A stretch of DNA of 64,000 bases from the NCBI GenBank assembly GCA_947499155.1, contig CANMND010000006.1, positions 1 to 64,000 of the forward strand, given 5' to 3'. Source of the DNA: an uncultured Sphingomonadales bacterium (GTDB lineage Bacteria; Pseudomonadota; Alphaproteobacteria; Sphingomonadales; Rhodothalassiaceae). The position numbers and the translations under genes are program-made. The notes under the pieces were generated by a model. That model was not told the DNA's origin and did not search any database. It worked only from the letters and a program-made list of their open reading frames with translations. Positions 9,476-49,029 of the stretch are shown here, piece after piece (the stretch's first letter is position 1; each line of letters starts with the position of its first letter).

Positions 9476-9727
9476 GCTCGTCACTCCTCTGACTTGTCCC
9501 TCGGGCTATCGGGCCGAGGTTCATTACAGATTTCCGGGTCAGTTGCCAGCTATTTGCCTTTGCGGCAGAAGTGTCGGCGTCCGCCTGGAACAACAGGTAC
9601 CTGCTGTCACAAGCGTGCCACCATGAATGGGGAGTAGCAAGGGACGACATCAGACATCTCTCAATATCTTGTGGATAACTACGACCTGTTGTGATGGAAT
9701 ATTCCACAGGCGCAAGATTTTGTGAAT

Positions 9728-10093
9728 TTAATCACCAGTTTTGGGTGCCGGAGCTTTCTTTGGCGCGGCCTTTGTGGGTCTGGCTGATTTTGATGCAGCT
9801 GTCTTTGCGGCTTTTGCCGGCGCACCCGCTTCGACCTTGGTATCAGCTTTGGTAATTAAGGCCTCCAGTTTGGCGACTTTTTCCGCCAGACGCTCATTTT
9901 CCTTGCGGGCATTGGCTGCCATTTCCCGGACAGCGTCAAATTCCTCGCGCGTTACAAGGTCCATGGCGCCCAATCTGCGGTCAAGCCATGCCTTGAACGT
10001 GCCCTCAGCCTCAGAGCGTACCGATGTGAGGGCACCAGCAGCGCCAGTGGCCAGTTTTGCAAGATCATCGAAAAAACGATTGTCGGTCTGCAT
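9728..10093 (-). CDS. ubiK: Accessory factor UbiK family protein (BMFP domain)
   Basis: The 121-residue protein begins MQTDNRFFDDLAKLATGAAGAL and continues with a coiled-coil region rich in Glu, Arg and Ala (about 30-80), as in the UbiK/YqiC family. UbiK assists aerobic ubiquinone biosynthesis with UbiJ in E. coli. The tail is an Ala/Lys/Pro-rich low-complexity segment (AKAAKTAASKSARPTKAAPKKAPAP), a common disordered end in alphaproteobacterial members. The start at 10093 matches the family; ATGs at 10123 and 10129 lack good binding sites, whereas GGAAAG lies 12 bases before 10093. It is divergent from lgt. Confidence 0.85.
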   Translation of the reverse strand: MQTDNRFFDDLAKLATGAAGALTSVRSEAEGTFKAWLDRRLGAMDLVTREEFDAVREMAANARKENERLAEKVAKLEALITKADTKVEAGAPAKAAKTAASKSARPTKAAPKKAPAPKTGD

Positions 10094-10164
10094 GATGGGG
10101 TCGATCTTTCCAAAAACAGTCATTACCATTCTGGAATATGGAGTGTGACCATACCGAATGCAAA

Positions 10165-10184
10165 GCCTGATTTTAAAATCAGGC
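10165..10184. promoter_or_regulatory. Perfect 20-bp palindrome between ubiK and lgt
   Basis: GCCTGATTTTAAAATCAGGC is a perfect 20-base inverted repeat with no spacer. It lies in the divergent intergenic region, 72 bases from the ubiK start and 91 bases from the lgt start. The lack of a loop argues against a terminator and for a dimer-binding operator. The binding protein is not known. Confidence 0.55.
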
Positions 10185-10274
10185 CCGTCTCTTCTTAAAA
10201 TCCGCTTGTATCGCAGCTTGACAGCGCGTGTCAGCTAAAGATGATGACCATCCTGAAGCCAGAGGAGAAAGCAA

Positions 10275-11114
10275 GTGATGCTGGATATGAGCATGATGGG
10301 TGTACTGGCCTATCCGCAGATCGATCCTGTCCTGATAACGATCTTTGGCGTGCCGGTCAGATGGTATTCCCTTGCCTATCTTGGGGGCCTGCTTCTGGGC
10401 TGGTGGTGGGCGCGCCGGGTGGCGGTTCGTCTGGCAGTTCCGGTCACGCGTTTGCAGATTGACGATTTTCTGATGTGGGCGACATTTGGGGTCATTCTTG
10501 GCGGACGACTGGGTTATGTCCTGTTCTACAAGCCAATGACTTATCTAAGTGATCCGATGGCGATTTTACGTCTGTGGGACGGCGGCATGTCCTTTCATGG
10601 CGGATTGCTTGGCGTGGTCCTTGCGGTCATCCTGTTTTGCAGGAAGAACAGGATTTCCCTGTTCCGCTTTTCAGACATGATCGCAACTGTAGCTCCCATC
10701 GGATTGTTGTTGGGTCGTTTGGCCAACTTCATCAATGGTGAATTATGGGGCAGGGCAACGGATCTGCCATGGGCGATGGTATTCCCATATGACCCGTTAC
10801 AGGTGGCACGCCATCCCAGCCAGCTTTATGAAGCGGCTCTGGAGGGGCTTTTGCTGCTTCTGGTGCTTAATTTCGTTGTCTGGCGGACGTCTGTGGCCCA
10901 AAGGCGACCTGGGCTGGTCAGCGGCCTGTTCTTCATAGGCTATGGCCTGTCGCGTTATGTGGTGGAATTTGCCCGTGAGCCTGATGCCCATTTGGGCCTG
11001 CTTGCCGATTTCATCAGCATGGGACAGGTCCTGAGCCTGCCGATGATTGCCTTTGGTCTCTGGCTGGTCTGGCAATCTGGTCGACAGGATGCGAGCGGGA
11101 GTCTGGCCAAGTGA
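10275..11114 (+). CDS. lgt: Prolipoprotein diacylglyceryl transferase
   Basis: The 279-residue inner-membrane enzyme transfers diacylglycerol from phosphatidylglycerol to the lipobox Cys of prelipoproteins. Visible Lgt features are RWYSLAYLGG near residues 29-38, the GGRLGYVLFYKP segment, and HGGLLGV followed later by GRLANFINGELWGR, the Lgt signature. About seven hydrophobic segments are seen. GTG 10275 and ATG 10278 are adjacent starts, both served by AGGAG at 10263. It overlaps the next gene as GTGA, opening a three-gene run with the methyltransferase and pgeF. Confidence 0.96.
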   Translation: MMLDMSMMGVLAYPQIDPVLITIFGVPVRWYSLAYLGGLLLGWWWARRVAVRLAVPVTRLQIDDFLMWATFGVILGGRLGYVLFYKPMTYLSDPMAILRLWDGGMSFHGGLLGVVLAVILFCRKNRISLFRFSDMIATVAPIGLLLGRLANFINGELWGRATDLPWAMVFPYDPLQVARHPSQLYEAALEGLLLLLVLNFVVWRTSVAQRRPGLVSGLFFIGYGLSRYVVEFAREPDAHLGLLADFISMGQVLSLPMIAFGLWLVWQSGRQDASGSLAK

Positions 11115-12187
11115 CACCATTGGAGGCGCATCTTCGTGAGGTGATCAGCAAGGATGGCCCAATCAGCGTGCACCGCTTCATGGCCGAGGCCCTGATGCAC
11201 CCTGATCATGGCTATTATCGCAAAAATGATCCTCTGGGTCGGGACAGGGATTTTATTACAGCACCGGAAATATCACAGATATTTGGTGAACTGATCGGCC
11301 TGTGGCTTGCTGATCGCTGGGAGGCGATGGGACGGCCAAGCCCGGTAAATCTTGTAGAGCTTGGCCCGGGTCGGGGAACCTTGATGGCTGATGCCATTCG
11401 CGCCTTGTCAGTGGTCCCCAGCCTGCGCAAAGCCATTGATGTTCATTTTGTCGAATCAAATGTGACGCTGCGGGCGGCCCAGGCAAAACACACAAAGGCT
11501 ATCTGGCATGACCACCTGTCTGATGTCCCACCCGGACCCACCTTGCTGATCGCCAATGAGTTTTTTGACGCCTTGCCCATCCGGCAGTTTGTCAGGTCAG
11601 CTTCAGGCTGGTCGGAACGACTGGTTGCCATGGGCGAGAAGGGGTTTGAGTTCAGTCTGGGGCCAGACGACATAGAAAGTCTGTTAATTCCTGACAGCCT
11701 TCACAATGCCGCAGCTGGCTCAATTGTGGAGGTGTGCCCCGATGGTCTGGACGTTGCTGCAATGATTGGCCACAGGTTGTTTAAATACGGTGGCGCAGCG
11801 CTGGTGATCGATTACGGCTACGGGAAAAGTGCGGTTGGTGACAGCCTGCAGGCAATCCGGCGGCATCAGTGTGTGGATGTGTTCCACCGCCCGGGGGAAA
11901 GCGACCTGACCGCTCATGTGAATTTTGAAGAACTTGCAAGGGCAGCAGAGACAGCCGGGGTGCGGGTGCTTGGGCCTGTCACACAAGGGGAATTTTTGCG
12001 AACTCTGGGCATTGAGCTGCGTGCTGCCATGCTGAAACGGCGTGCGACCCAAAAACAAGGTGCGGATATTGATGCCGCTGTCCGTCGCCTGACCGCACCT
12101 GACATGATGGGGGATCTGTTCAAGGTGATGGCCATACAGGTTATGGACGATGCTCCCCCCGGATTTGAGGACGCTGAAGATGGCTGA
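11111..12187 (+). CDS. MidA/NDUFAF7-like class I SAM-dependent methyltransferase
   Basis: The 358-residue protein belongs to the COG1565 family. It shows ISVHRFMAEALMHPDHGYY and DFITAPEISQIFGELIGLW at the N-terminus, the SAM-binding LVELGPGRGTLMAD near 80, and IANEFFDALPIRQFV. Human NDUFAF7 methylates an arginine of complex I subunit NDUFS2, and bacterial members are candidates for the same job, though this is inferred here. The GTG start overlaps the lgt stop. Sitting between lgt and pgeF is a common alphaproteobacterial arrangement. Confidence 0.9.
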   Translation: MTPLEAHLREVISKDGPISVHRFMAEALMHPDHGYYRKNDPLGRDRDFITAPEISQIFGELIGLWLADRWEAMGRPSPVNLVELGPGRGTLMADAIRALSVVPSLRKAIDVHFVESNVTLRAAQAKHTKAIWHDHLSDVPPGPTLLIANEFFDALPIRQFVRSASGWSERLVAMGEKGFEFSLGPDDIESLLIPDSLHNAAAGSIVEVCPDGLDVAAMIGHRLFKYGGAALVIDYGYGKSAVGDSLQAIRRHQCVDVFHRPGESDLTAHVNFEELARAAETAGVRVLGPVTQGEFLRTLGIELRAAMLKRRATQKQGADIDAAVRRLTAPDMMGDLFKVMAIQVMDDAPPGFEDAEDG

Positions 12188-12947
12188 ACGAATAGAAGCC
12201 TCGTTGTTGACGGACTGCAAGGCTATATCGCACGGGTTTTTTACCCGCAGGGGCGGTGTATCTTGTGACGTCTATGAGAGCCTGAATGCCGGACGGGGAT
12301 CAGATGACAATCCAGACTCTGTTAAAGAGAATCGCGCACGAATCATCACAACACTTGGTGCAGAACGGCTGGCCACGCCTTATCAGGTTCATGGCGCGCG
12401 CGCTGTAGTGGTGGACGAGACGTTTGACTTTGAGGCGCCGCCAAAAGCCGATGGCCTTGTCACCGACAGGCGCGGTCTTGCTGTCGGTATCGTCACAGCC
12501 GATTGCGCACCTGTATTGCTGGCGGACAGTGAGAGGGGCGTCATTGCCGCCTGTCATGCGGGTTGGCGTGGCGCTGCGTCCGGTATTATCGAGGCAACAG
12601 TCGCCTGCATGGAAAGTCTTGGGGCAAGGCGTGACAATATCACTGCAGCTCTTGGGCCGATGATCGGGCAGGAATCATATGAAGTTGGCCCGGAAGTGCG
12701 TGCTGCCTTTTTGACTATAGAGCCGTTTTTTGCCAATTTTTTTGCCGATGGCATCCAGGCTGATAAATATTGGTTTGATCTGGAAGGGGCCGTAGCTGGC
12801 TGCCTTGCGGTCAGCGGAGTGGCGATGGTTGAGCCTTTGGGGCGCGACACTTACCGTGAATCTGGTCATTTTTACAGCTACCGTCGCGCGACCCACGAGC
12901 ATCATCCAGATTATGGCCGTCAACTCTCGGCAATCATGCTGCGATGA
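12180..12947 (+). CDS. pgeF: Peptidoglycan editing factor PgeF (YfiH, multicopper-polyphenol-oxidase fold)
   Basis: The 255-residue protein has the YfiH/DUF152 pattern: HGFFTRRGGVS, LNAGRGSDD, QVHGARAVVVD, VTADCAPVLLAD, ACHAGWRGAASG and a late TYRESGHFYSYRR. The Cys and His residues in TADCAP, CHAGWRG and QVHG form the metal/substrate site. Known members act as purine nucleoside phosphorylase/adenosine deaminase-like enzymes or in peptidoglycan precursor editing. ATG 12180 overlaps the upstream gene by eight bases. Confidence 0.9.
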   Translation: MAERIEASLLTDCKAISHGFFTRRGGVSCDVYESLNAGRGSDDNPDSVKENRARIITTLGAERLATPYQVHGARAVVVDETFDFEAPPKADGLVTDRRGLAVGIVTADCAPVLLADSERGVIAACHAGWRGAASGIIEATVACMESLGARRDNITAALGPMIGQESYEVGPEVRAAFLTIEPFFANFFADGIQADKYWFDLEGAVAGCLAVSGVAMVEPLGRDTYRESGHFYSYRRATHEHHPDYGRQLSAIMLR

Positions 12948-35077: not shown

Positions 35078-35515
35078 AATAACCTGCAATATATAGCGAA
35101 TATTTCGTTATAGCCAGACATAGTAAAAAAAACTTCATACAAATAGACTAATCTGCTGGACGACGGTTTTTATTGCGCATAGTGCGCTAAAGCGTTTCTT
35201 ATTATATTCAACTGGATGCTCCAAGTACTTCTTCAGTGCAGATCACTAGATGCTCATGTTTATATAACATCTGACTGTTGTGAATTTGTCTTTCATAAGT
35301 TGATTTGCAATCTATAACTTATACATTTAATTTCTGTAATTAATCTCTGGAATTTAAACAGGTATAAAATTTGACTAGTTAATAAAAAACCTGTCTATTT
35401 TTCCGAATGCTTCAAACTGGTTTGCTATAACTGGCGATGGAATTGCGGTCCCTATGCCTGTTACATACGCGGGCCGGTTTTTTGGTTGTGAGATAGTCGG
35501 GACGGAGAGGCGGAA
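35078..35515. other. AT-rich non-coding region upstream of deoA
   Basis: There are 438 bases with no coding potential. It presumably holds the promoter of the DUF4236 gene at its left end and that of the deoA operon at its right end. Six-base arms ACAGGT (35358) and ACCTGT (35389) flank the putative deoA promoter. Nothing else recognisable is present. Confidence 0.6.
35371..35399 (+). promoter_or_regulatory. Possible sigma-70-type promoter of the deoA operon
   Basis: TTGACT (5 of 6 to the -35 consensus), a 17-base spacer and TCTATT (4 of 6 to the -10 consensus) lie about 117 bases before the deoA start. The -35 overlaps TTGACTAGTTAATAAA, which matches 10 of 14 fixed positions of the RutR operator consensus, only a weak resemblance. 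Confidence 0.35.
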
Positions 35516-36838
35516 ATGCTGTTCAAGGATGTGATCTGCAAAAAGCGGGATGGTGGAACTTTGTCGGCTGAGGAGATCGACATGTTCGTCACCGGCCTTG
35601 CCGACGGCAGTCTCCCGGCTGAGCAGGTGTCGGCGCTGGCCATGGCGATTTTCCTGAAATCCATGAACTTTGAAGAAGCGGGTGCCTTGACCCTGGCTAT
35701 GGCGAAGTCCGGTGTGATGCTGGATTGGAGCGAGGAAGGACTGGATGGCCCGGTTGTGGACAAGCACTCCACCGGTGGCGTGGGCGACAAGGTGAGCTTT
35801 ATGCTGGCCGCCATCGCCGCAAGCTGTGGCTGTTATGTGCCGATGATCTCAGGACGCGGGCTTGGTCACACGGGCGGCACTCTTGATAAAATCGTCAGTA
35901 TTCCGGGATATAATCCAACGCCAGGCCTTGATGTATTTCGCAAAGTCACGAAAGAGGTGGGTTGTGCCATTATCGGCCAGACATCGGATTTGGCCCCGGC
36001 CGACCGTCGGCTTTATTCCATCCGCGACATTTCGGGCACCGTAGAATCCATCCCGTTGATCACTGCCTCAATCCTGTCCAAGAAAATCGCCGCGGGCAAT
36101 CGCGCTTTGGTTATGGATGTGAAGGTGGGGACAGGGGCCTTCATGAAAAATATTGAAGAGGCCCGCGCCCTGGCTCGCAGCATTATCGGGACCGCCAAAG
36201 CCGCTGATCTTCCAACCCATGCCTTGATCACTGACATGTCGCAGGTTTTGGGCGACACAGCAGGTAATTCCGTCGAAATTGAAGAGACCGTGCAATATCT
36301 TACCAATAACCGTCGTGATCCCCGGTTGGATGAGGTGGTACTGGCTCTGGCTGCGGAAATGCTGGTCACTGGCGGTCTTGCCGATAATCGCGATGTGGCT
36401 TTGGAACGTGCCGATGAGGCGGTGACATCAGGTCGCGCGGTAGAGGTGTTCGGCAAAATGGTAGCGGCTTTGGGTGGACCTGTAGACTTTATCGAGCGTT
36501 ATGATCACTTTCTGCCCAAGGCGCCGGTGGTGGTCCCAGTTCTGCCTGAAATGGAAGGCTATGTGTCTTTTGTGGATGCGCGGGCCATCGGTAATGCCAT
36601 CATCGAACTGGGCGGCGGGCGCAAGGTGGCGAATGATGTGCTGGATTTATCGGTGGGCTTTGATCGCATTGCACCCATTGGCGCAAAAGTAGGGCCGGAC
36701 CGACCTTTGGCTTTTGTTCATGCCGCCAGCAAGGATGCCGCTGACCGTGCAGCCAAAAGCCTGCGTGCCGCCAATCGCATTTCAGATCGGAAACCGGCTG
36801 ACAGCGTGGTAATTCATGATATTCTGACCAGCGCCTGA
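35516..36838 (+). CDS. deoA: Thymidine phosphorylase
   Basis: The 440-residue enzyme cleaves thymidine or deoxyuridine with phosphate to give base and 2-deoxyribose-1-phosphate. Family marks are the helical start with RDGGTLSAEEIDMFV, VDKHSTGGVGDKVSF (phosphate site, about 81-95), MISGRGLGHTGGTLDK (signature) and LVMDVKVGTGAFM. A GGAGAGGCGGAA site precedes the ATG. It heads a rightward run with the nucleoside transporter, nucleoside hydrolase and ribokinase; its product feeds DeoB and DeoC encoded on the other strand. Confidence 0.96.
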   Translation: MLFKDVICKKRDGGTLSAEEIDMFVTGLADGSLPAEQVSALAMAIFLKSMNFEEAGALTLAMAKSGVMLDWSEEGLDGPVVDKHSTGGVGDKVSFMLAAIAASCGCYVPMISGRGLGHTGGTLDKIVSIPGYNPTPGLDVFRKVTKEVGCAIIGQTSDLAPADRRLYSIRDISGTVESIPLITASILSKKIAAGNRALVMDVKVGTGAFMKNIEEARALARSIIGTAKAADLPTHALITDMSQVLGDTAGNSVEIEETVQYLTNNRRDPRLDEVVLALAAEMLVTGGLADNRDVALERADEAVTSGRAVEVFGKMVAALGGPVDFIERYDHFLPKAPVVVPVLPEMEGYVSFVDARAIGNAIIELGGGRKVANDVLDLSVGFDRIAPIGAKVGPDRPLAFVHAASKDAADRAAKSLRAANRISDRKPADSVVIHDILTSA

Positions 36839-36902: not shown

Positions 36903-38132
36903 TTGGGGAATTTCATAAGCCTGCTGGGTATTGCGGCCATTCTGGGTTTGGCCGTTGCTCTTTCAACCAATTGGCGGGCCATCCGTCTGCGTATCGTACT
37001 GAGTGCTTTTGGATTGCAGGCGGCTATTGCGGCTTTTGTGCTGTATATCCCGGCTGGCAAAGCCATGATCCAGACACTGTCGGGCGGGGTACAGGCCATT
37101 CTCGATTTTTCCAATGTCGGGATTAATATGGTTTTTGGCGGGCTGGCCGCCGGTGACAGCTTGTTCAGTTTCGCCATTAACGTCCTCCCGATCATCATCT
37201 TCTTCTCTTCGCTGATGTCGGTGATGTATCACCTGCATATCATGCAATGGGTCGTGAAGATTTTTGGCAGGATGTTGCGCCGCATAATCGGAACGCAAGA
37301 GATCGAGTCCATGAATGCTGCGGCCAATATGTTTGTCGGGCAAACCGAAGCGCCTCTGGTTATCCGTCCGTATCTGGGACGACTGACTGATGCCCAGCTG
37401 TTCACAGTGATGGTCTCGGGGCTGGCATCCGTTGCGGGCACGGTTCTGGCTGCTTATGCGCAAATGGGCATTCGGCTGGATTATCTTTTGGCGGCAAGCT
37501 TCATGGCAGCCCCCGGCGGGCTGTTGATGGCCAAACTGCTTATGCCAGATGAAGAGGAAAACAATGACGCCTCACTTGATCAGGAAGCCATAGTTGAAGT
37601 AGATCACAAGCCCCATGCCAATGTGATATTGGCAGCAGCGGTGGGTGCGCAGGATGGCATGAAGCTGGCCGTGAATATCGGGGCGATGTTGCTGGCTTTT
37701 GTGGCCTTGATCGCCTTGTTTAATGGCCTTGTTGGAGGCATTGGCGGTTGGTTTGGTCATGGCGACCTGACCGCGGAAGCCATACTTGGCTATCTGTTTG
37801 CACCCATGATGTATTTATTGTCGATCCCGTGGTCCGAGGCGCAAATTGCTGGTGCACTGTTTGGGGAAAAGCTGATCCTCAACGAATTTGTGGCCTATGC
37901 GCATCTGGGTGAGATTATTGACACGATCGGCCCGCGAACAGAGGCTGTGGTAACATTTTCCCTGTGCGGCTTTGCCAATGTGTCCTCCATCGCCATTTTG
38001 CTGGGGGGGCTTGGTAGCCTGATCCCCGAAAAACGGGATTTGATCGCCCGTTATGGCATGCGTGCAGTGGCAGCCGGATCTTTGTCAAACCTGATGAGCG
38101 CTGCCATGGCAAGCCTGCTTTTGCCATTTTAA
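36903..38132 (+). CDS. nupC: Concentrative nucleoside transporter (NupC/CNT family)
   Basis: The 409-residue inner-membrane symporter has eight or more hydrophobic segments. CNT motifs are seen: VFGGLAAGDSLFSFAINVLPIIIFF, the substrate-binding FVGQTEAPLVIRPYL, NEFVAYAHLGEII and FSLCGFANVSSIAILLGG. It imports nucleosides with H+ or Na+. The start is TTG 36903 behind GGGATAGAGAG. It lies 64 bases after deoA and 15 before the nucleoside hydrolase, giving a tight catabolic operon. Confidence 0.94.
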   Translation: MGNFISLLGIAAILGLAVALSTNWRAIRLRIVLSAFGLQAAIAAFVLYIPAGKAMIQTLSGGVQAILDFSNVGINMVFGGLAAGDSLFSFAINVLPIIIFFSSLMSVMYHLHIMQWVVKIFGRMLRRIIGTQEIESMNAAANMFVGQTEAPLVIRPYLGRLTDAQLFTVMVSGLASVAGTVLAAYAQMGIRLDYLLAASFMAAPGGLLMAKLLMPDEEENNDASLDQEAIVEVDHKPHANVILAAAVGAQDGMKLAVNIGAMLLAFVALIALFNGLVGGIGGWFGHGDLTAEAILGYLFAPMMYLLSIPWSEAQIAGALFGEKLILNEFVAYAHLGEIIDTIGPRTEAVVTFSLCGFANVSSIAILLGGLGSLIPEKRDLIARYGMRAVAAGSLSNLMSAAMASLLLPF

Positions 38133-38147
38133 ACGAAAGGACTAGGG

Positions 38148-39113
38148 ATGCGCTCGATCATCATGGATTGCGATCCCGGCCAGGATGATGCGGTGAGCTT
38201 GCTTATGGCGCTGGCATCTCCTGAAGACTTTAACATCCTTGGCATTACTGCGGTGGCGGGCAATGTGGGCCTGGAGCGGACGGAACGAAATGCCCGCATG
38301 ATCTGCCAATTGGCGGGGCGCGGCGATATCCCGGTTTATGCAGGCTGTGACCGGCCCCTGATGCGTCCTTTGATTACTGCTGAAAGTGTGCACGGGCAAA
38401 CCGGTATAGACGGAATTGACGTGTTTAATCCCATTGCTCCCTTGGCGGACGGCCATGGGGTGGATTTTATCATTGAGACCCTTTTGGCAGCGGAAGATGA
38501 CAGCATTACGTTGGTTCCCAGCGGGCCTTTAACCAATCTGGCCCTGGCCATGATACACGCTCCTGAGATTTTGCCGAAAATCCGTGAAATTGTGGCCATG
38601 GGCGGGGCCATGCGCGAAGGCGGGAATTTCTCGCCATCGGCTGAATTCAATATTCTGGTGGACCCGGAGGCTGCTCAAATCGTTTTTGATTGCGGACGCC
38701 CTGTGACTTTGGCGGGACTGGATGTGACCCACAAGGTGCTCGCCACCCATGAACGACTGACCGCCATAAAGGCGCTGAATGGTGCGGTGCCGGAAGCCGT
38801 TTACAACATGCTGACTTTTTTCAATCGTTTCGATACGCAAAAATATGGCTCAGGCGGTGCGCCCTTGCATGATCCGTGTACAATTGTCTGGCTTTTGCAG
38901 CCCGGCCTGTTCCAATCGAAAATGTGCAATGTGTCGGTGGAAACTCACTCTGAGCTCACATTGGGTCATACGGCGGTGGATTTCTGGCATGTGACCGACC
39001 GGTCGAAAAATGTTCGTTGGCTTTATGACGTGGATACGGATGGATTTTTTGCTTTGCTAGCCGAACGCCTTGCACGTTTTCCTCTTAAAGAGACCGGAAA
39101 TGGCCGAAACTGA
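38148..39113 (+). CDS. Inosine/uridine-preferring nucleoside hydrolase
   Basis: The 321-residue protein has the calcium-binding nucleoside hydrolase motif DCDPGQDDA (residues 7-15), followed by GITAVAGNVGLERTERNA, VHGQTGIDG and LVPSGPLTNLALA. MGGAMREGGNFSPSAEFNILVDPEAA and HDPCTIVWLL complete the site. It hydrolyses ribonucleosides to base and free ribose, which fits the ribokinase gene overlapping its end. It resembles RihA/RihB; purine versus pyrimidine preference cannot be told from the sequence. Confidence 0.94.
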   Translation: MRSIIMDCDPGQDDAVSLLMALASPEDFNILGITAVAGNVGLERTERNARMICQLAGRGDIPVYAGCDRPLMRPLITAESVHGQTGIDGIDVFNPIAPLADGHGVDFIIETLLAAEDDSITLVPSGPLTNLALAMIHAPEILPKIREIVAMGGAMREGGNFSPSAEFNILVDPEAAQIVFDCGRPVTLAGLDVTHKVLATHERLTAIKALNGAVPEAVYNMLTFFNRFDTQKYGSGGAPLHDPCTIVWLLQPGLFQSKMCNVSVETHSELTLGHTAVDFWHVTDRSKNVRWLYDVDTDGFFALLAERLARFPLKETGNGRN

Positions 39114-39963
39114 CATGAAAAATCGACCGCCACGGCTGACGGTTCTGGGGTCGGTCAATCTGGATATTGTGACACGGGTCAATCGCTTGCCAGTGGCGGG
39201 TGAAACGGTGACCGGGGCAGAACTAAGCCGTTTTCCCGGTGGCAAGGGGGGCAATCAGGCTCTGGCGGCCCGGCGCTTGGGTGCGGAGGTTTATCTGTGC
39301 GCGCGGGTTGGCAAAGATGCAGAAGCGGACGAAGCTTTAGCCTTTCTGCGTGCAGATGGGGTGGACGTTTCACACTGCATTGCCTTGAGTGACTGCCCTA
39401 CAGGGGTGGCGCTGGTGATTGTGGATCAGGGTGGTGAAAACCAGATTGTGGTCGCCCCCGGCGCCAATCGCTGCTTTGCACCGGAAAGCCTGGTATTGCC
39501 TCAAGCAGAAGCGCTTTTGTGCCAGCTTGAAGTGCCGATGGCAGTAATTGAAGCAGCAGTGGAACAGCGATCAACCGGCTTATTCGTGTTGAATGCTGCC
39601 CCGGTGGCACCTATCCCGCCTGCAGTCCTTCGCAGGGTAGATGTGTTGATCTTGAACGAAACCGAAGCGAAGGCTCTGGAAGGCCATTTAGATGGCTTTA
39701 AGGGCTTAAAGGCGCTGACGTTAGGGGCCAAGGGAGCCATCTTGATGAAAGGCGATGACATAATAGCCCGCGCCACTCCGCCAATTGTCCAAGTGGTGGA
39801 CAGCACCGGTGCAGGCGATGCTTTTTCTGCTGCCCTGACCATTGCATTTATGTCCTCTGTTGAATATCAGAAGGCCCTTGATTTTGCCTGCAAGGTGGGG
39901 GCGCTTGCCACAACCCGGCATGGTGCACAGCCCAGCATGCCGTATCTGGGTGAACTTGACTAG
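39100..39963 (+). CDS. rbsK: Ribokinase-like PfkB-family sugar kinase
   Basis: The 287-residue PfkB kinase has VLGSVNLDIVTRV near the start, then FPGGKGGNQALAARRLGAEV (signature 1) and VDSTGAGDAFSAALTIAF (signature 2, catalytic Asp in GAGD). It would phosphorylate ribose released by the hydrolase to ribose-5-phosphate. ATG 39100 overlaps the preceding gene by 14 bases; ATG 39115 is an alternative. Ribokinase is preferred over another PfkB specificity because of context and signature 1. Confidence 0.88.
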   Translation: MAETDMKNRPPRLTVLGSVNLDIVTRVNRLPVAGETVTGAELSRFPGGKGGNQALAARRLGAEVYLCARVGKDAEADEALAFLRADGVDVSHCIALSDCPTGVALVIVDQGGENQIVVAPGANRCFAPESLVLPQAEALLCQLEVPMAVIEAAVEQRSTGLFVLNAAPVAPIPPAVLRRVDVLILNETEAKALEGHLDGFKGLKALTLGAKGAILMKGDDIIARATPPIVQVVDSTGAGDAFSAALTIAFMSSVEYQKALDFACKVGALATTRHGAQPSMPYLGELD

Positions 39964-40087
39964 CTAGACCATTGTTTGGTGATTATCGTCAACGCGGCGA
40001 AAGAGCTAGCGAGTTGGTTGTAAAGCGGGAGTGTTATGGTATCGCGATCAGGGTCACGGTATATCAAGGGGAAGGTTGAGACGATTT

Positions 40088-40804
40088 ATGGGTGACGAAA
40101 TCCTTCCGATACAGCCAGATAATGGAGCGGACGAAGTGGTAAAAACCCGCATACAGGCACGCAATGAAAAGCGCATTCTGGATGCGGCACAAGAGGTATT
40201 CGCAGCCTATGGCTTTCATGGGGCTACCATTGATAAGGTGGCTGAGAAAGCAGATATATCAAAGCCCAATCTGCATTATTACTTTAAGCGCAAAGCCGAT
40301 CTTTATGTGGCGGTGTTGCGCCGCACACTGAAAACCTGGCTGATCCCTTTAACCAATCTTGATCCTGAAGGCGATCCTGAGAAGGAATTAGGTCGCTTTA
40401 TCCGTTTCAAGGTGGAGATGTCGCGTCGGTCACCTATCGCATCAAAAGTGTTTGCAAATGAAATGTTACAGGGCGCACCTTTTTTGCGTGATTATCTGGA
40501 GACGGACCTGAGGATGATGGTGGAAAGCAAATCCGGCGTCATTCGTGCCTGGATCGCGGACGGGAAATTGCAACCAGTGGATCCTTATCACCTGATTTTT
40601 TTGATCTGGGCGGCCACGCAACATTATGCCGACTTCCAGCCACAGATTAAAGCGGTGATGGGCATGCCGCGTTTGACAAAAGATTATTTTACAAGCGTGT
40701 CTGACAGTCTGATCCAAATCATCCTGCGCGGTGTCTTGCCCGATAAGACGGAAAGCGCGGGCACAGCTGCGGCAAAACTAACTTTGCCACTGGAAAGCGG
40801 ATAA
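40088..40804 (+). CDS. TetR-family regulator, RutR-like
   Basis: The 238-residue protein has an N-terminal TetR helix-turn-helix (about 19-70): RILDAAQEVFAAYGFHGATIDKVAEKADISKPNLHYYFKRKADLY. The C-terminal part (FANEMLQGAPFLRDYLETDL, WIADGKLQPVDPYHLIFLIWAATQHYADF) resembles the RutR ligand-binding domain, which senses uracil/thymine in E. coli. ATG 40088 is chosen on family length and an upstream GAAGGTTGAG. It probably controls the flanking nucleoside genes; a RutR-like site lies before deoB. The actual ligand is unproven. Confidence 0.88.
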   Translation: MGDEILPIQPDNGADEVVKTRIQARNEKRILDAAQEVFAAYGFHGATIDKVAEKADISKPNLHYYFKRKADLYVAVLRRTLKTWLIPLTNLDPEGDPEKELGRFIRFKVEMSRRSPIASKVFANEMLQGAPFLRDYLETDLRMMVESKSGVIRAWIADGKLQPVDPYHLIFLIWAATQHYADFQPQIKAVMGMPRLTKDYFTSVSDSLIQIILRGVLPDKTESAGTAAAKLTLPLESG

Positions 40805-40948: not shown

Positions 40949-43258
40949 TTAGAAGCGCTTGGAGAACTTTACGCCAAATTCGCTGCGATCATTATTGCGG
41001 ATAATCTCGGTAAAGCCTGAAAATGGCTGATCCAGACGACCCACATCATATTTTTCGTTGAATACGTTATCGCCATAGATGGTAGCCGACCAGTTGTTTG
41101 CCGCATTTTCATAACGGATCGAGAAATTCACCAGATCACGGGAATCCAGCCTGTTTTCGGCGTTATTAATCGATTGGCCGAACATGGAACTGCGATAGGA
41201 ATAGTCAGCCCGCATGGTGACCAGATCACCATTACCCATGAAATACTGATATTGCGGCCCAATATTGACGGTCCATTTTGGCGTCAAGGACGGGGTATCA
41301 CCTACGGCCACACCTACTGTCCCTGGATTGATCTTTTTAATCTCGCTGTCCAGATACCCGACAGAGGTTTGAAGGCTGAAACCGCCCAACTGGAGGGTAT
41401 TCTCAAACTCGAACCCGAGAGCTTCGGATTTCCCGGCATTGGCTGTAATCGTTACAAAGCCGGCAGGCGACGGGCTGGAGAACGGTAAGGCGAGGTCAGT
41501 ATATTCAGTGAAGAACAACGCGACCGAAGATTGCATAAAATCAAATGGACGGCCCTTGAAGCCCACTTCATGATTGCGGGCGATGGTGGGGTCGAAGTTT
41601 ACAAAAGTATTGGGTCCACCAAACGGACGCGGCGGGAAGCCACCACTTTGATAGCCCTTGGATTCTGAATAATAGACATTGAGCCGATCAGTCAGGTCAA
41701 AGGTGGCAGATGCATTCCACGTCACTTCATTCCAGTTTTCCGACCGGAATACACGCTGGGCCGATCCCGGAACACCCGTGCCCGTTCCGTCAGGAGCCGG
41801 CAAGAACCATGGGAAGTTGGTGAACAGTGCGTCGGCACTCTTTTTATCATAGGTATAGCGAATGCCACCAGCCAGCTTCAGGCGATTTGTGACCTGATAA
41901 CCTGCATGAGCGAAAGCGGCATAGCTGTTCGTCGTCTGGTTAATGTCGAAGGTGTCACCCGGCGTGATGAAAGTGTTAGGGCCGGAGAAGGTGTCGCCTT
42001 CTTCGTAGAAATAATACAAAGCCGTGACGAAATCGAACTTGTCAAATTCGCCGTTTAACTGGGCTTCAAAGGATAGCTGATCTGCTTCACCCTCTTCGGG
42101 GAAGGACTGGAAATCCTGGAATGCGGTTTCATCATCCAGGCCGCCCTTGTAATCCGAGTAGCGATAGCTGCCCAACAGCTTGAGGCTGAGATTGTCATCA
42201 ATGAGATAATCAGCGGTCAAAGATGTGCCAAAGCCTGAATTGGACTGATTGAGCAGGTTGCCCTCAGCGGTGTTGGTGTCATCAGGGTTTGATGCGATAT
42301 CACCGGCTTTAAGAGGTCCACCGGGCAGATCAACAGCCGGGCCGATGGGATCGGTAAAGAAGCCAAGACCGGTTTCAGCAAACACGCCAGCGCGATCAAG
42401 ACCGGGGATGATTTCTGCCGTGGATGGTGATTGCCCATTTTCGCCCTGAACCGCATCGGCGGTTAACAAGAAGGACAAGCGGTCGCTGGCTTTCCAGTCG
42501 ATGGCAACACGGCCTGATGCCTCAAATAATTCGCCGATTTCTCGGGTAGGTTCAACAATCTTGAGTGCTTTGCCAAAGCCGTCGCGCCGGGTGATATTGC
42601 CCGTCACCGACATTCCCAGATTGTCTGCCAGTTCGAAATTGCCGTAGAAATTGCCAGCGACACGGGCGCGCGTGCCAGCCTGGATTTCAAACTGGAATGT
42701 TTCTTCATCACCGGGCTTCTTGGTGATGATATTCACCGCTCCACCGATAGTGTTTCGGCCATAAAGCGTACCTTGCGGGCCGCGCAATACTTCGATGCGT
42801 TCCACATTGGTGAGGTCCAGATTGGCGCCCATCTGGCGACCAAGATATACCCCGTCTACATAGACGCCAACGCCCGGATCGGTTGTGATAATATGATCTT
42901 GCAGGCCAATGCCGCGAATGAAAATAGCAGCATGAGCGGGGTTTCCAACGCCAAAGCGGGTAACATTAAGGTTGGGAACTGCGCGGTCGATATCAGACAC
43001 GCTGTCGAGTCCGCGCATGGTCATCTCGTCACCAGAAATCGCAGTGATGGCCATGGGCGTTGAATACACGCCTTCTGATCGACGCTGCGCAGTTACAACA
43101 ATTTCTTCCAACACGAAGGCTTTGGGTGCGTCAGGCGCTTCGCCCTGTTGAGCCATTGCTCCATCTGTAGTGGCCAATCCGGCAATTAACAGGCTGGCGG
43201 AGGCAACCGATCCCAGCAACGCACAGCGCAAGGCGTGCTGCGCAGCAAATGTCTTCAT
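40949..43258 (-). CDS. TonB-dependent outer-membrane receptor
   Basis: The 769-residue protein has a signal peptide (cleavage near residues 38-40, GAMA-QQ) and a TonB box-like LEEIVVTAQRR. A plug domain (about 50-170) shows FIRGIGLQDH, VERIEVLRGPQGTLYGRNTIGGAVNI, and a 22-strand-type barrel ends in an aromatic residue (GVKFSKRF). GGGAGAAA precedes ATG 43258. Receptors like this import scarce, large or charged substrates using the proton motive force. Flanked by nucleoside genes, it is a candidate outer-membrane nucleoside/oligonucleotide importer, an inference from context only. Confidence 0.93.
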   Translation of the reverse strand: MKTFAAQHALRCALLGSVASASLLIAGLATTDGAMAQQGEAPDAPKAFVLEEIVVTAQRRSEGVYSTPMAITAISGDEMTMRGLDSVSDIDRAVPNLNVTRFGVGNPAHAAIFIRGIGLQDHIITTDPGVGVYVDGVYLGRQMGANLDLTNVERIEVLRGPQGTLYGRNTIGGAVNIITKKPGDEETFQFEIQAGTRARVAGNFYGNFELADNLGMSVTGNITRRDGFGKALKIVEPTREIGELFEASGRVAIDWKASDRLSFLLTADAVQGENGQSPSTAEIIPGLDRAGVFAETGLGFFTDPIGPAVDLPGGPLKAGDIASNPDDTNTAEGNLLNQSNSGFGTSLTADYLIDDNLSLKLLGSYRYSDYKGGLDDETAFQDFQSFPEEGEADQLSFEAQLNGEFDKFDFVTALYYFYEEGDTFSGPNTFITPGDTFDINQTTNSYAAFAHAGYQVTNRLKLAGGIRYTYDKKSADALFTNFPWFLPAPDGTGTGVPGSAQRVFRSENWNEVTWNASATFDLTDRLNVYYSESKGYQSGGFPPRPFGGPNTFVNFDPTIARNHEVGFKGRPFDFMQSSVALFFTEYTDLALPFSSPSPAGFVTITANAGKSEALGFEFENTLQLGGFSLQTSVGYLDSEIKKINPGTVGVAVGDTPSLTPKWTVNIGPQYQYFMGNGDLVTMRADYSYRSSMFGQSINNAENRLDSRDLVNFSIRYENAANNWSATIYGDNVFNEKYDVGRLDQPFSGFTEIIRNNDRSEFGVKFSKRF

Positions 43259-43627
43259 AGCGTTTTTCTCCCATGAACGTTTCTGGCGGCGGTTAAAAGC
43301 GTTTAAATAATTTTTCGCCACTTTTTTGATGGCTTTGCCAGCAAAGCCACAGCGATTAAAGCCATAGCATTTACTTATTTTACGAGCAATAATTTTATCA
43401 ATTAGTAAAAAAATTCAAATGGAAAAATACACAGGCCGAATATCCCCAGATGCCAGAATAGAAGTGCCTTTTTAATCCATAAAGGAGAAGTGCTTCTGCA
43501 TCACTTTCTGATCAAACAAACAAAATTATTCGTGACTATGATAGAGAGCTACCAGCCGCCACTTGTTGATACAGGGACTGATGTCAAACAATATCGCGTT
43601 GTTAGTCGGCAGGAGGATTGTCTTATA
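43259..43627. other. Intergenic region between cdd and TonB-receptor gene
   Basis: These 369 bases carry no convincing gene. They contain the palindrome at 43331-43348 and an AT-rich stretch (43378-43432) upstream of it on the minus strand, where the receptor promoter is most likely. Confidence 0.6.
43331..43348. promoter_or_regulatory. 18-bp palindrome upstream of the TonB receptor gene
   Basis: GGCTTTGC-CA-GCAAAGCC is a perfect eight-base inverted repeat with a two-base centre, 73 bases before the receptor start. The short centre suits a dimeric regulator rather than an RNA hairpin. It does not resemble the RutR-type site found before deoB, so a second regulator is possible. Confidence 0.5.
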
Positions 43628-44026
43628 CTAAAGCCGGAAGGATTCCGGGAGCAGGTCATTGATTTTGAAGTTGCGGCGCTGGCCGTTTTCGCCTTCCAGT
43701 ATAATCACTGTTTCATTATCGGCGAATTCCAGAATTTTCTGACGGCAGCCGCCGCAGGGCGTGCAGGTTTCAAGACCCTTGCCAGCCTTCCCGCCAACAA
43801 TGGCTATGCGCCTGATGCGAGTGCCGCCTTCCGTCACCATGGACCCGATGGCATTGGCCTCAGCGCAGATACCTTCGGGATAAGCGGCATTTTCAACATT
43901 GCAGCCCATATGGATGTGGCCGTGTTCATCCAGAACGGCGGCCCCCACATGAAAGCTGGAATAGGGGGCATGGGCTTTGTCTCGGGCGCGTTTCGCGCTG
44001 GCAAACAAACTGTCGTCACTGGTCAT
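43628..44026 (-). CDS. cdd: Cytidine deaminase
   Basis: The 132-residue homotetrameric-type enzyme converts (deoxy)cytidine to (deoxy)uridine. The zinc site is C54 in CAEANAI (with catalytic E56) and C91/C94 in PCGGC. NVENAAYPEGICAE is the standard active-site block. ATG 44026 has AAAGG nine bases upstream; ATG 44035 is in frame. It is fourth in the leftward deoB-deoC-aldehyde dehydrogenase-cdd order and supplies substrates for DeoA and the nucleoside hydrolase. Confidence 0.95.
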   Translation of the reverse strand: MTSDDSLFASAKRARDKAHAPYSSFHVGAAVLDEHGHIHMGCNVENAAYPEGICAEANAIGSMVTEGGTRIRRIAIVGGKAGKGLETCTPCGGCRQKILEFADNETVIILEGENGQRRNFKINDLLPESFRL

Positions 44027-44061
44027 GATCGCCATCCTTTGAGCGTTCCGTTTTTATGGTT

Positions 44062-44103: not shown

Positions 44104-46494
44104 TTAGTCGCCGTAGGGGAGCCAGACGTTTTTCACCTGGGTTGCTTCGCGCAGGAACTGGCGACCTTCGCCCTGGGTGCTTGAGGCCCAGTCACGGGCT
44201 TTGCCATTATTGACCCAGGTGCGCTTCAGGTTATCAGCGGAAAGCCGTTCGACCATTTCACTGCCCGCAGCACTGCCGAAATACCAGATGCCATCCAGTT
44301 GATCATGCTGTGCCATGACTTTAGCCAGCCCGTCACGGTCGCCGGTGACGATATTTACGGCCCCACCGGGCACATCGGACGTTTCCAGAACCTGATAGAA
44401 GTCGGTGGCGATGAGCGGATAACGCTGCGACGGGATCACGACTGAGCGGTTGCCCATAGCCAGATGTGGTGCGATCAGCGAAATGAAGCTCAAAAGCGGT
44501 GCTTTATCGGGGCAAACGACCCCCACAACACCCAAAGGCTCGTTCATGGCAAGAGCGATATTGCGCATGGGCGGTGTATGCACCAATCCATCAAACTTGT
44601 CGGCCCAGGCGCCATAGCTGAACAGGCGGGATATGGATGCTTCCACCTCTGTCTTGGCCACTTTGGCAGATACACCGGTCAATTGGCTTAAGCGGCGCGC
44701 GAACTCTTCTTCGCGGATCGACAGATTTTCCGCTATGTAATACAGGATCTGCGCGCGATTATGGGCTGTGGTTTTCGACCAGCCCTCAGCCTTAAAGGCT
44801 GATTCCACAGCGTCGCGGATGTCTTTGCGGTTGCCATCGCCAACACGACCCATAAACTTTCCATCATGGTCTGCAACAGCTTGGCTATTACCCCCATCGG
44901 GACGCTTTTGCTTGCCGCCTATATAGTTTTTCGGCGTGCGGTCGATCATATCCACGTGCTTTGCGGAGATTTCCGGGGCTTTAATATCTTCAACTATGTC
45001 AGACCCGGAACTGCGCCATTCATCTGATCGTTTGAGATATTCAAACATGCCTTCCCGACCACCTTCACGACCAAAGCCGCTTTCCCGGTAGCCGCCAAAG
45101 CCGCAGGCGGCGTCAAACTGGTTGGTGCAATTGATCCATACAATACCCGTCTTCACCTGACTGGCAATTTCCAGTGCCCGGTTGATATTTTCTGACCAGA
45201 TGCTGGCGGACAGGCCATAGCGGGAATTATTGGCAAGCTCGGTTGCTTCTGCCAAGGTACGGAAGGTGGTGACAGTGAGAACCGGGCCGAAAATTTCTTT
45301 CTGTGCGGCGACATTGGCAGGCGACACATCGGTCAGAAGGGTGGGCAGATAATAGCAGCCGTCAGTCGGGCAAGGCACATCCGGTTGCCATTTGGTTGCA
45401 CCTTCTGCAACTGACTGGCTGACCAGGCTGTCAATCCGGTCCCGCTGAACGGGATCGACTATGGCCCCCATGTCCACGGCTTTATCCAGCGGTGGACCAA
45501 GCCGGAAATTATTAAGCCGGAGTTTTACCTTTTCAATCAGACGGTCGGCCACGCCTTCTTCGACGATCAGCCGCGATCCGGCGCAGCACACCTCGCCCTG
45601 ATTGAACCAGATGGCATCCACAAGTCCCTCAACGGTACTGTCGAGATCCGCGTCATCGAAGACCAGAAATGGCGACTTTCCACCCAGTTCCAGAGTCAGC
45701 TTCTTGCCGCTACCGGCGGTAGTTCTGCGGATCAGGCGGCCCACTTCGGTGGAGCCAGTGAAGGCGATTTTGGCAATCTCTTCATGCCGGACAAGCAGTT
45801 CGCCGGTGTCGCCGGCGCCTGTTATGATATTCACAACGCCATCGGGCAGGCCTGCCTCACGACACAAGTCGGCAAAATAAAGCGCGGTGAGGCTGGTATA
45901 CTCAGCGGGCTTCAAGACCACGCAATTTCCTGCGGCAATGGCGGGTGCAATTTTCCACGCCAGCATCAACAGTGGGAAATTCCACGGGATCACCTGACCA
46001 ACAACACCCAGCGGTTCATAGCCGGTGAGTTCGCTGTCCATCAATTGCGCCCAGCCCGCGTGATGATAGAAATGACGGGCGACGAGCGGAATATCCAGAT
46101 CGCGGGATTCACGGATCGGCTTTCCATTGTCCATGCTTTCCAGAACGCTGATAAAACGGCTGTTCTTCTGGATCAGGCGTGCCAGTGCATAAAGATGGCG
46201 CGCCCGCCCATGGCCGGACAGTTTCGACCATTTGCCATAAGCTTTTTTGGCGGCTTCAACGGCTTTATCAACTTCCGCCTGTCCGGCAATGGACAAGCGT
46301 GCCAGCAGCTTTCCAGTAGCCGGGTCACGGCTTTCAAAGGTTTTTTTCTCGCCCTCTGGCGCTACCCATTTGCCGCCAATGAACAAATCGAAACCATCAG
46401 GATGGCTATCAAGCCATTCCTGCACATAATCCGACTGTTCCGGCGCGGGGCCATAGGACATGGTCTCAAAAATTTCGGCTACTTTTGTGGACAT
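44104..46494 (-). CDS. Two-domain aldehyde dehydrogenase, ALDH16-like
   Basis: The 796-residue protein has a full aldehyde dehydrogenase domain (about 30-510) and a second, ALDH-derived domain (about 520-790). The first has N172 in PWNFP, E269 in LELGGKSP and catalytic C303 in FNQGEVCCAGSR. In the second, the catalytic-Cys region reads WVNNGKARDW, so the nucleophile is missing. This matches the ALDH16 architecture, with an active first and a vestigial second domain. Located between deoC and cdd, it probably oxidises the acetaldehyde made by DeoC to acetate. Confidence 0.88.
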   Translation of the reverse strand: MSTKVAEIFETMSYGPAPEQSDYVQEWLDSHPDGFDLFIGGKWVAPEGEKKTFESRDPATGKLLARLSIAGQAEVDKAVEAAKKAYGKWSKLSGHGRARHLYALARLIQKNSRFISVLESMDNGKPIRESRDLDIPLVARHFYHHAGWAQLMDSELTGYEPLGVVGQVIPWNFPLLMLAWKIAPAIAAGNCVVLKPAEYTSLTALYFADLCREAGLPDGVVNIITGAGDTGELLVRHEEIAKIAFTGSTEVGRLIRRTTAGSGKKLTLELGGKSPFLVFDDADLDSTVEGLVDAIWFNQGEVCCAGSRLIVEEGVADRLIEKVKLRLNNFRLGPPLDKAVDMGAIVDPVQRDRIDSLVSQSVAEGATKWQPDVPCPTDGCYYLPTLLTDVSPANVAAQKEIFGPVLTVTTFRTLAEATELANNSRYGLSASIWSENINRALEIASQVKTGIVWINCTNQFDAACGFGGYRESGFGREGGREGMFEYLKRSDEWRSSGSDIVEDIKAPEISAKHVDMIDRTPKNYIGGKQKRPDGGNSQAVADHDGKFMGRVGDGNRKDIRDAVESAFKAEGWSKTTAHNRAQILYYIAENLSIREEEFARRLSQLTGVSAKVAKTEVEASISRLFSYGAWADKFDGLVHTPPMRNIALAMNEPLGVVGVVCPDKAPLLSFISLIAPHLAMGNRSVVIPSQRYPLIATDFYQVLETSDVPGGAVNIVTGDRDGLAKVMAQHDQLDGIWYFGSAAGSEMVERLSADNLKRTWVNNGKARDWASSTQGEGRQFLREATQVKNVWLPYGD

Positions 46495-46503
46495 AATGAG
46501 CCT

Positions 46504-47553
46504 CTATCCCATGGGATGACGGTGAGCGGCCGAATAGCGGCCAGTGACAAAATGTTCGAGCTGCCGCTCGATATCAGTGAGCAGACGAGAGGCGCCAAAG
46601 CGGAACAGGTCCGGATCAAGCCAGTCATTGCCCAGTTCCTCCTTGACCATGATCAGATATTGTACCGCATCCTTGGCCGTGGAAATGCCGCCTGCAGGCT
46701 TGTATCCTACCTTGAATCCAGTGCGCTCATAATAGTCGCGAATGGCGCGCATCATAATCAGGCTTACTGGCTGCGTGGCGTTGACTTTTTCCATCCCTGT
46801 GGATGTCTTGATGAAATCAGCGCCAGCCATCATCGCTACCATTGAGGCTTTTGCCACTTTGCTGGCGGAACCCAATTCGCCGGTCGCGAGGATGGCCTTG
46901 ATATGGGCATCGCCACAGGCTTCCCGGAAGGCTTTTACCTCGTCATAAAGAGCTTCCCAGTTGCTGCTCAGCACGTGGCGACGAGAGATGACGATATCAA
47001 TTTCCCGCGCTCCTGCGGCGACAGATTCCCTGATTTCAGCCAAACGCAGGCGAAAGGGCGAAAGCCCCGCCGGAAAGCCGGTGGAAACGGCCGCTACCGG
47101 GATGTTGGTGCCAGCCAGAGCCTTAACCGCAGTATCGATCATTTCATGATAAACGCAGACGGCGCCAACAGTGATATTCTTGTCGGCAACTCCCAGGGCT
47201 TCCATAAGGTCGGCGCGTACGGGCGCCTTGGCCTTGGCACATAGACGGCGGACCCGGCCCGGCGTGTCGTCCCCCGACAAGGTGGTAAGGTCGATGCAGC
47301 TTATGGCTTTCAAAAGCCATGCCGCCTGCCAGTCCTTCTTGACGGTGCGGCGGCCTTTCAGACTTGTCACCCGGCGTTCCACTGCCGACAGATTGATACG
47401 GATATCTTCCACAAGACCAGCGTCAAACGGCATGCCTTCATTGCGGGCAATATGGTTATGTCCCGCGCCATAGGGCGGGCGTTCATCATGTGGTGTCAGA
47501 TGTGTGACCTTTTGTTCACTCACGAAAGCAGGCCTTTCCTTGGCAGTCGTCAC
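46504..47553 (-). CDS. deoC: Deoxyribose-phosphate aldolase
   Basis: The 349-residue class I aldolase splits 2-deoxyribose-5-phosphate into glyceraldehyde-3-phosphate and acetaldehyde. The Schiff-base lysine is K249 in [12 protein letters not shown]219 ([11 protein letters not shown]) and the lysine in KPAGGIST complete the site. It is longer than the roughly 260-residue E. coli enzyme owing to an N-terminal extension of about 80 residues, as in eukaryotic-type DeoC. It overlaps deoB by four bases and precedes the aldehyde dehydrogenase gene. Confidence 0.95.
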
Positions 47554-48761
47554 AAAAAGCTTTTACCTGCGGCGAGTGGCGGCAGGTCAAGATGCTGGCT
47601 TAAAGATTGTCCGATATCGGCAAAGCTGTCACGCAAGCCAATATCAGCAGGAGCTATATTCGGCCCAAAGGCAATCACCGGAACATATTCGCGGGTATGG
47701 TCCGAGCCGGGCCATGTGGGGTCGCAGCCATGATCGGCGGTCAGTACTGCAATGTCGTCCTCCCGCATGGCGGCTTTTAATATGGGCAATTGCTTGTCAA
47801 AGGCTTCCAAAGCCGCGGCATAACCCGCCACATTGCGCCTGTGGCCGTAAAGCATGTCAAAGTCGACAAAATTGGCAAAAATGATCGAGCCATCGGGGGC
47901 GGTTTCCATTTCCGCCATCAAGGCATCAAAGACCGCATCATTGCCGTGGGCCTTCACGGACCGAGTGATACCGGAGCCTGCGAATATATCACTGATCTTG
48001 CCGATGGAAATCACCTCGCGGCCCGCCCGCTTGCCAATATCAAGAAGTGTATCGCCATGGGGCGGTGTGGCAAGATCACGGCGATTTCCGGTGCGCTCGA
48101 ATGTCTCAGGGTTTTCTCCCAGAAACGGGCGGGCGATCACACGACCGATATTATTGTCATCCACCAGTCTTCTGGCGATAGCACATAGCTCATAAAGCCG
48201 TTCCAACCCGAAATGGGTTTCATGGGCGGCAATCTGGAACACACTATCGGCTGAGGTGTAAACGATGGGCTTGCCGGTATTGATGTGTTCTTCGCCCAGT
48301 TCGGCAATGATGGTGGTGCCGGACGCATGGCAATTGCCCAAAACGCCAGGAAGATTGCCCTCGCGTACCAGCGCCTCAATCAGCGCATTGGGAAAACAGG
48401 GGGTTTCTTTTGGGAAGTAGCCCCAGTCGAACAACACGGGCAGGCCCATCATTTCCCAATGGCCGCTAGGTGTGTCTTTGCCCCGGCTCAGCTCGGCTGC
48501 AGCTCCATAGCGGGCTTTGGGAGTTGAAGGCAAAGAAAAGGGCACATGGCCGCCCGCGTTTTTGGCGGCATGACCCAGGCCAAGCTTCAGTAAATTGGGA
48601 ATTACCAAGGGGCCATGTCGCAAGCCAGCCTGGTCGGCGCGGCCATCAGCGCAATGGGCGGCAATATGACAAAAGGTATTTGCCCCAGCATCGCCGAACT
48701 GGGCAGCGTCTGGTGCTTCGCCGATGCCAAATGAGTCGAGTACAGCCACGATCGCGCGCAC
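47550..48761 (-). CDS. deoB: Phosphopentomutase
   Basis: The 403-residue alkaline-phosphatase-superfamily enzyme interconverts (deoxy)ribose-1- and 5-phosphates. The N-terminal [15 protein letters not shown] carries the metal-binding Asp, [11 protein letters not shown] and [11 protein letters not shown] are family blocks, and [13 protein letters not shown] and [21 protein letters not shown] give the second metal set. The start is GTG 48761 with AAGGAA six bases upstream. It is first of the leftward operon and sits 54 bases downstream of a RutR-like site. Confidence 0.95.
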
Positions 48762-48815
48762 GTTAATTCCTTGCAGCGAGAGAAATGTAGAAACGATAAC
48801 AAACAGTGCTTAAAT

Positions 48816-48831
48816 TTGACCAAAAAGTCAA
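48816..48831 (-). promoter_or_regulatory. RutR-type operator upstream of deoB
   Basis: TTGACCAAAAAGTCAA matches 12 of 14 fixed positions of the published E. coli RutR consensus TTGACCA-nn-TGGTCAA, in the right length and symmetry. On the coding (minus) strand it reads TTGACTTTTTGGTCAA, so it also contains a -35-like TTGACT; no strong -10 is seen at 17 bases. It lies 54 bases from the deoB start. A RutR-like TetR regulator is encoded 8 kb away at 40088. Binding is inferred. Confidence 0.6.
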
Positions 48832-49029
48832 AATTGAGTTTGCAAGCCAGAGTAGATGGCAAACCCACGATAATTCACCAAATGTGCGCTCAAAACCCAA
48901 GACTTGTCCAGAGTGCGGTATTATTTGTGAACATTCTTTGGGAATTTTGACGGCAAAGTGATCTGCGAATGCCTCCATCGTCTTATCAGTTGGATTATGT
49001 GATGGCTGATCGCGGTTTGGCGCACGCAG

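Follow-up and report, generated by a model that had tools for sequence, protein, structure and literature searches.

Nucleoside import and breakdown genes of an Iodidimonas-like alphaproteobacterium are probably controlled by a relative of RutR, the uracil-sensing regulator of E. coli, via three matching DNA sites. The genes lie in a stretch of 64,000 nucleotides that was analysed as a whole (the window). Specifically, we consider it likely that a RutR-like TetR protein encoded there binds a putative operator of the deoB-deoC-aldh-cdd operon as well as boxes upstream of deoA and of a TonB-dependent receptor gene, and that it acts as a repressor released by uracil or thymine. The best reading of the sequence comparisons is that a RutR-like repressor was extended to nucleoside catabolism and that its usual target, the operon for reductive pyrimidine-ring degradation (ring operon), was subsequently lost. 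The nearest genomes compared are those of I. muriae (G001) and strain Q-1 (G002), hereinafter the two congeners. The host is a marine, iodide-oxidising organism.

The nucleoside gene island

The genes of the island are as follows.

35516–36838, plus strand: deoA, thymidine phosphorylase (TIGR02643, 612 bits, above cut-off)
36903–38132, plus strand: nupC-type nucleoside transporter (TIGR00804, 450 bits, above cut-off)
38148–39113, plus strand: rih, RihA-like nucleoside hydrolase (PF01156, 331 bits; NF007761, 329 bits, under its cut-off)
39070–39963, plus strand: rbsK, ribokinase-like PfkB-family kinase (PF00294; TIGR02152, 227 bits, under its cut-off)
40088–40804, plus strand: tetR, RutR-like TetR regulator (PF08362, 166.8 bits; ATG at 40088 preferred, longest frame from GTG at 40031)
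40949–43321, minus strand: tonB, TonB-dependent receptor (PF00593 and PF07715)
43628–44035, minus strand: cdd, cytidine deaminase (TIGR01354, 134 bits, above cut-off; without a box of its own)
44104–46494, minus strand: aldh, double-domain aldehyde dehydrogenase (PF00171 in two stretches, 639 bits)
46504–47553, minus strand: deoC, deoxyribose-phosphate aldolase (TIGR00126, 164 bits, above cut-off)
47550–48761, minus strand: deoB, phosphopentomutase (TIGR01696, 482 bits, above cut-off)

The place of aldh after deoC suggests that the double aldehyde dehydrogenase probably acts on the acetaldehyde made by DeoC. The gap from aldh to cdd is 68 bases, and cdd probably also belongs to the regulon. 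The TonB receptor possibly takes nucleosides or pyrimidines as its substrate. In the PDB it matches chiefly receptors for metals, vitamins and siderophores, in their plug region, and in both congeners its gene is divergent from the ring operon.

The regulator and its ligand pocket

The regulator is the sole PF08362 protein in its genome. It contains a YcdC-type C-terminal domain (PF08362, cut-off 25 bits) and a TetR_N domain (PF00440, 51.7 bits, cut-off 24), and its top three PDB matches are E. coli RutR, homologous over the whole chain. The RutR-like C-terminal sequence ascribed to this protein in an earlier note is thus borne out. The position of the start codon is common to I. muriae. Because the RutR equivalog cut-offs are not reached (TIGR03613, 233.4 versus 368 bits; NF011584, 210.7 versus 230 bits), we call the protein RutR-like and not RutR itself. 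In a tree that includes E. coli RutR, it groups with the proteins of I. muriae and Q-1 (97/81), followed by a protein from MAG locus L031, where hydA and deo genes both occur in the neighbourhood.

K52 and K62, the DNA-contact residues of RutR (PMC10891134), are both lysine in the window regulator. In E. coli RutR, uracil is held by W77, Y97, W167, Q171 and Q179, with Y97 making its contact through a water (PMC10891134). Four of these five residues are kept in the window regulator, and the fifth, Y97, is replaced by phenylalanine. The conservation of the pocket points to uracil or thymine, in preference to deoxyribose-5-phosphate, as the probable effector.

An alternative is that the regulator binds the boxes but senses a nucleoside or deoxyribose phosphate and no longer a free pyrimidine base. 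The phenylalanine is found in this species only, with tyrosine in the other 22 of the 23 rows compared, and the substitution occurs in a genome where no ring-degradation pathway was detected. Set against this, W77, W167, Q171 and Q179 are unchanged, and both congeners have Y97 together with the same deo and tonB boxes. We therefore regard a change of effector as unlikely, and a free base as the better candidate.

Operator boxes in the window

The earlier note had reported a RutR-like operator before deoB. The element, TTGACCAAAAAGTCAA, is indeed present at 48816–48831. It lies 54 bases before deoB, whose minus-strand start codon is the GTG at 48761, and agrees with the E. coli RutR consensus TTGACCAnnTGGTCAA at 12 of 14 fixed positions. 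For comparison, TGGACTAAACGGTCAA, located between rutA and rutR in E. coli, agrees at 11 of 14. The deoB site is the only 12-of-14 match in the window, but dinucleotide shuffles yield a mean of 0.47 matches of this quality, and agreement with the E. coli consensus is therefore insufficient proof of the site by itself. The weaker deoA site, TTGACTAGTTAATAAA at 35371–35386, agrees at 10 of 14 positions, and matches of at least 10 of 14 number 49 in the window versus 23.6 expected. Since these numbers are too weak for the claim, judgement by the E. coli consensus alone was dropped and a motif was learned without the window.

A de novo palindromic EM search was run on the sequences preceding 74 related regulator genes from other Alphaproteobacteria, reduced to 49 non-redundant regions and excluding the window. 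The motif obtained was WTTTGACCRNYTGGWMAAA; its log-likelihood ratio was 448, compared with 19.5–38.7 in 20 shuffled sets. Most of the source regulators adjoin preA, preT or hydA, and none adjoin the deo genes searched for. In a scan of the window (~64,000 positions), the motif placed the TonB receptor promoter first, deoB second and deoA third; the three top positions, all upstream of island genes, have the form of a 16-bp TTGACC-type palindromic operator. Shuffled 350-bp upstream regions scored as high in 1 of 3000 cases for tonB, 1 of 3000 for deoB and 2 of 3000 for deoA. Shuffles were used as the null in place of random windows, because the random windows came from loci that contain boxes themselves. 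The boxes, to none of which a strand is assigned, are as follows.

35369–35388 (core 35371–35386): box before deoA, rank 3, 16.6 bits; TATAAAATTTGAC...TAAAAAA conserved in both congeners
43392–43411: box before the TonB receptor gene, rank 1, 20.9 bits; I. muriae keeps TTTTACTAATTGATAAA, and Q-1 has a weaker form
43506–43525: weak additional box between tonB and cdd, 10.5 bits, compared with 16.1 (I. muriae), 17.7 (Q-1) and 16.6 (G005) for its counterparts
48814–48833 (core 48816–48831): box before deoB, rank 2, 19.0 bits; TTTTGACTTTTYGGTCAA conserved in I. muriae and Q-1

Both sites of the earlier note are thereby recovered with an independent motif, and the best site in the window, that of the TonB receptor, had been missed. 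The proposed regulon reaches beyond deoxyribose catabolism, to the TonB receptor, the nucleoside transporter, the nucleoside hydrolase and the ribokinase.

A pattern composed after sight of the three boxes has four matches genome-wide, and the tonB, deoB and deoA boxes account for three. This count is not above that of the reversed control (six), so only the placement of the matches is telling. The fourth match (C4:244293) was discounted since it lies inside a reading frame.

In this species, according to the motif scan, neither tetR nor cdd is immediately preceded by a convincing box. A candidate directly before tetR, TTGACTAGCTAGACCA, which overlaps the rbsK stop codon, was rejected as too weak (rank 35); the matching place in I. 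muriae reads TTGACTAATTGGTCGC. The rank 4 sequence (38989–39008) is box-like and lies inside the nucleoside hydrolase gene. It was rejected as an operator because the top-scoring sites of the I. muriae and Q-1 loci do not include it.

Proposed mechanism of control

The RutR-like regulator would bind the deoB box as the operator of the deoB-deoC-aldh-cdd operon, and would bind the other two boxes as operators of deoA-nupC-rih-rbsK-tetR and of the TonB receptor gene. Probable −35 elements lie within the boxes or next to them, which suggests that the regulator acts as a repressor, likely by occlusion. A promoter scan at the boxes gave no strong sigma-70 match. A free pyrimidine base, uracil or thymine, would release the regulator, as the conserved pocket residues suggest; the base would be made in the cell by DeoA and the nucleoside hydrolase. 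Because tetR is the last gene of the deoA operon, the circuit would limit itself. The same type of regulator appears to govern the ring operon elsewhere in the class and in the congeners, and in the window's genome only the nucleoside branch would have been retained.

Boxes in related genomes

In I. muriae the target genes are dispersed, with deoB ~46 kb, tonB ~112 kb and cdd ~124 kb from the regulator, and in strain Q-1 these genes are spread over three contigs. Despite the dispersal, the deoB, deoA and tonB boxes are kept in both congeners (tonB weaker in Q-1). The whole deoB palindrome is kept, while its flanks have diverged. Further away, G029, G057 and G037 have boxes of 22.8–24.0 bits before deoB. 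G029 and G057 also have boxes before deoA and tetR, and G029 has one before a TonB receptor homologue. Conservation of the deoB site in relatives, on which the earlier note had staked its proposal, is found in these five genomes and not in G005 and G018, where no strong box precedes deoB. As to the proposal itself, the conserved deoB and deoA boxes support a RutR-like operator and regulator for deoxynucleoside catabolism, but the regulon is wider than had been suggested.

The boxes could be genuine but the target of a different regulator with a preference for TTGAC...GTCAA palindromes, with the linked tetR as a bystander. In favour of this, no strong box lies directly before tetR in this species, and in G018, whose assembly yielded no PF08362 regulator, deoA is preceded by a box of 19.1 bits. 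That assembly is fragmented into 800 contigs, however, so the regulator may be missing from the assembly only. Moreover, the motif derives from sequences upstream of relatives of this very regulator and finds these promoters, and in four genomes without a regulator-family match at E ≤ 0.001 (G003, G016, G035 and G043) the deo genes tested lack a comparable box. A different regulator is thus improbable. That the palindrome is a chance match, its TTGACT merely the −35 element of the deoB promoter, is scarcely credible: TTGACT does resemble a −35 hexamer and a 12-of-14 match is not rare in shuffled windows, but the site ranks second with an independent motif, is kept in two congeners with diverged flanks, and recurs at two other island promoters.

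Several loci of relatives carry further genes near regulators of this family. In keeping with the proposed control, a gene for uracil phosphoribosyltransferase comes next, in the same orientation, after the f8 regulators of G057, G037 and G045 (L115 6512–7141, L117 8807–9457 and L118 10103–10732, respectively). In the G057 locus (L115), a different TonB-receptor-like gene (9531–12878; PF25183/PF00593) adjoins deoA and has its own box (9399–9418, 17.2 bits); outer-membrane receptors thus recur near the motif. A second, divergent PF08362 regulator (96 bits) is located beside tonB of strain Q-1 (L124 9864–10502, G002:C103). More distant PF08362 regulators of 35–40% identity (family f5; L119, L120, L122, L125 and L126) lie 4–6 kb from cdd-deoA-deoB clusters. 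We rejected the f5 regulators as instances of the same control, since no such box precedes the deoB genes tested and only G027 has one, before cdd.

Probable loss of the pyrimidine-ring operon

In I. muriae, preT, preA, an amidase gene, an NCS1 transporter gene, a dihydropyrimidinase gene and cdd form a ring operon on one strand, divergent from tonB. The gap between the ring operon and tonB holds two boxes, and the layout in Q-1 is the same. Control of a rut or pre/hyd ring operon is the usual mark of RutR. Both congeners have such an operon with a box, but in the window's genome PreA, RutA and an above-cut-off dihydropyrimidinase were not detected, and none of the five I. muriae ring-operon proteins has a match in the window.

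The tonB-cdd gap of the window retains a strong box on the tonB side. The second box (43506–43525), whose counterpart in I. muriae and Q-1 precedes preT, scores 10.5 bits, versus 16.1 and 17.7 in the congeners, and is probably what remains of that operator. The simplest account would be that the ring operon was lost, leaving a decaying operator and leaving cdd behind the deoB operon. A gain of the ring operon in the two congeners is less likely; G005, of the same family, also has PreA and a box. With loss as the preferred account, the regulon that the earlier note called rewired is better described as "extended, then trimmed", since the congeners keep the ring operon with its box.

A bolder proposal, which we put forward tentatively and think rather doubtful, is that after the loss the RutR-like regulator, its pocket altered by Y97F, came to be devoted to switching the uptake and catabolism of nucleosides, the TonB receptor under its control serving as the outer-membrane importer of pyrimidine nucleosides or bases.

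Comparison with known systems

The E. coli deo genes are under DeoR/CytR control. There, the same enzymes (deoA, deoB and deoC) are under a specific regulator, but the regulator families, effectors and operators differ. E. coli RutR governs rutABCDEFG and carAB (PMC10891134). The window regulator resembles it in its homologous chain, in K52 and K62, in most of the uracil contacts and in a 16-bp palindromic operator of the same form. Unlike in E. coli, the boxes here precede deo genes, a nucleoside transporter operon and a TonB receptor gene, and RutA was not found in the genome. The RutR-like regulators of alphaproteobacterial preT-preA-hydA operons share the motif and the family, and an operon of this kind, together with a box, is present in the congeners. 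The window's genome differs from these systems in having no detected PreA or above-cut-off dihydropyrimidinase, and its island holds (deoxy)nucleoside genes.

RutR regulons for pyrimidine catabolism have been reconstructed across Proteobacteria (PMC5343134). In the papers searched, neither deo genes nor a TonB receptor are described as RutR targets, and an earlier prediction elsewhere is possible.

The targets of the regulator thus appear to shift from pyrimidine-ring degradation to nucleoside catabolism, with the DNA site and most of the ligand pocket retained. Both states of the regulon are visible among the relatives, namely in I. muriae, Q-1, L031 and L033, and in loci L031, L033 and L115 deo and ring-degradation genes both lie beside the regulator. 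The TonB receptor is in turn a candidate importer of pyrimidines or nucleosides.
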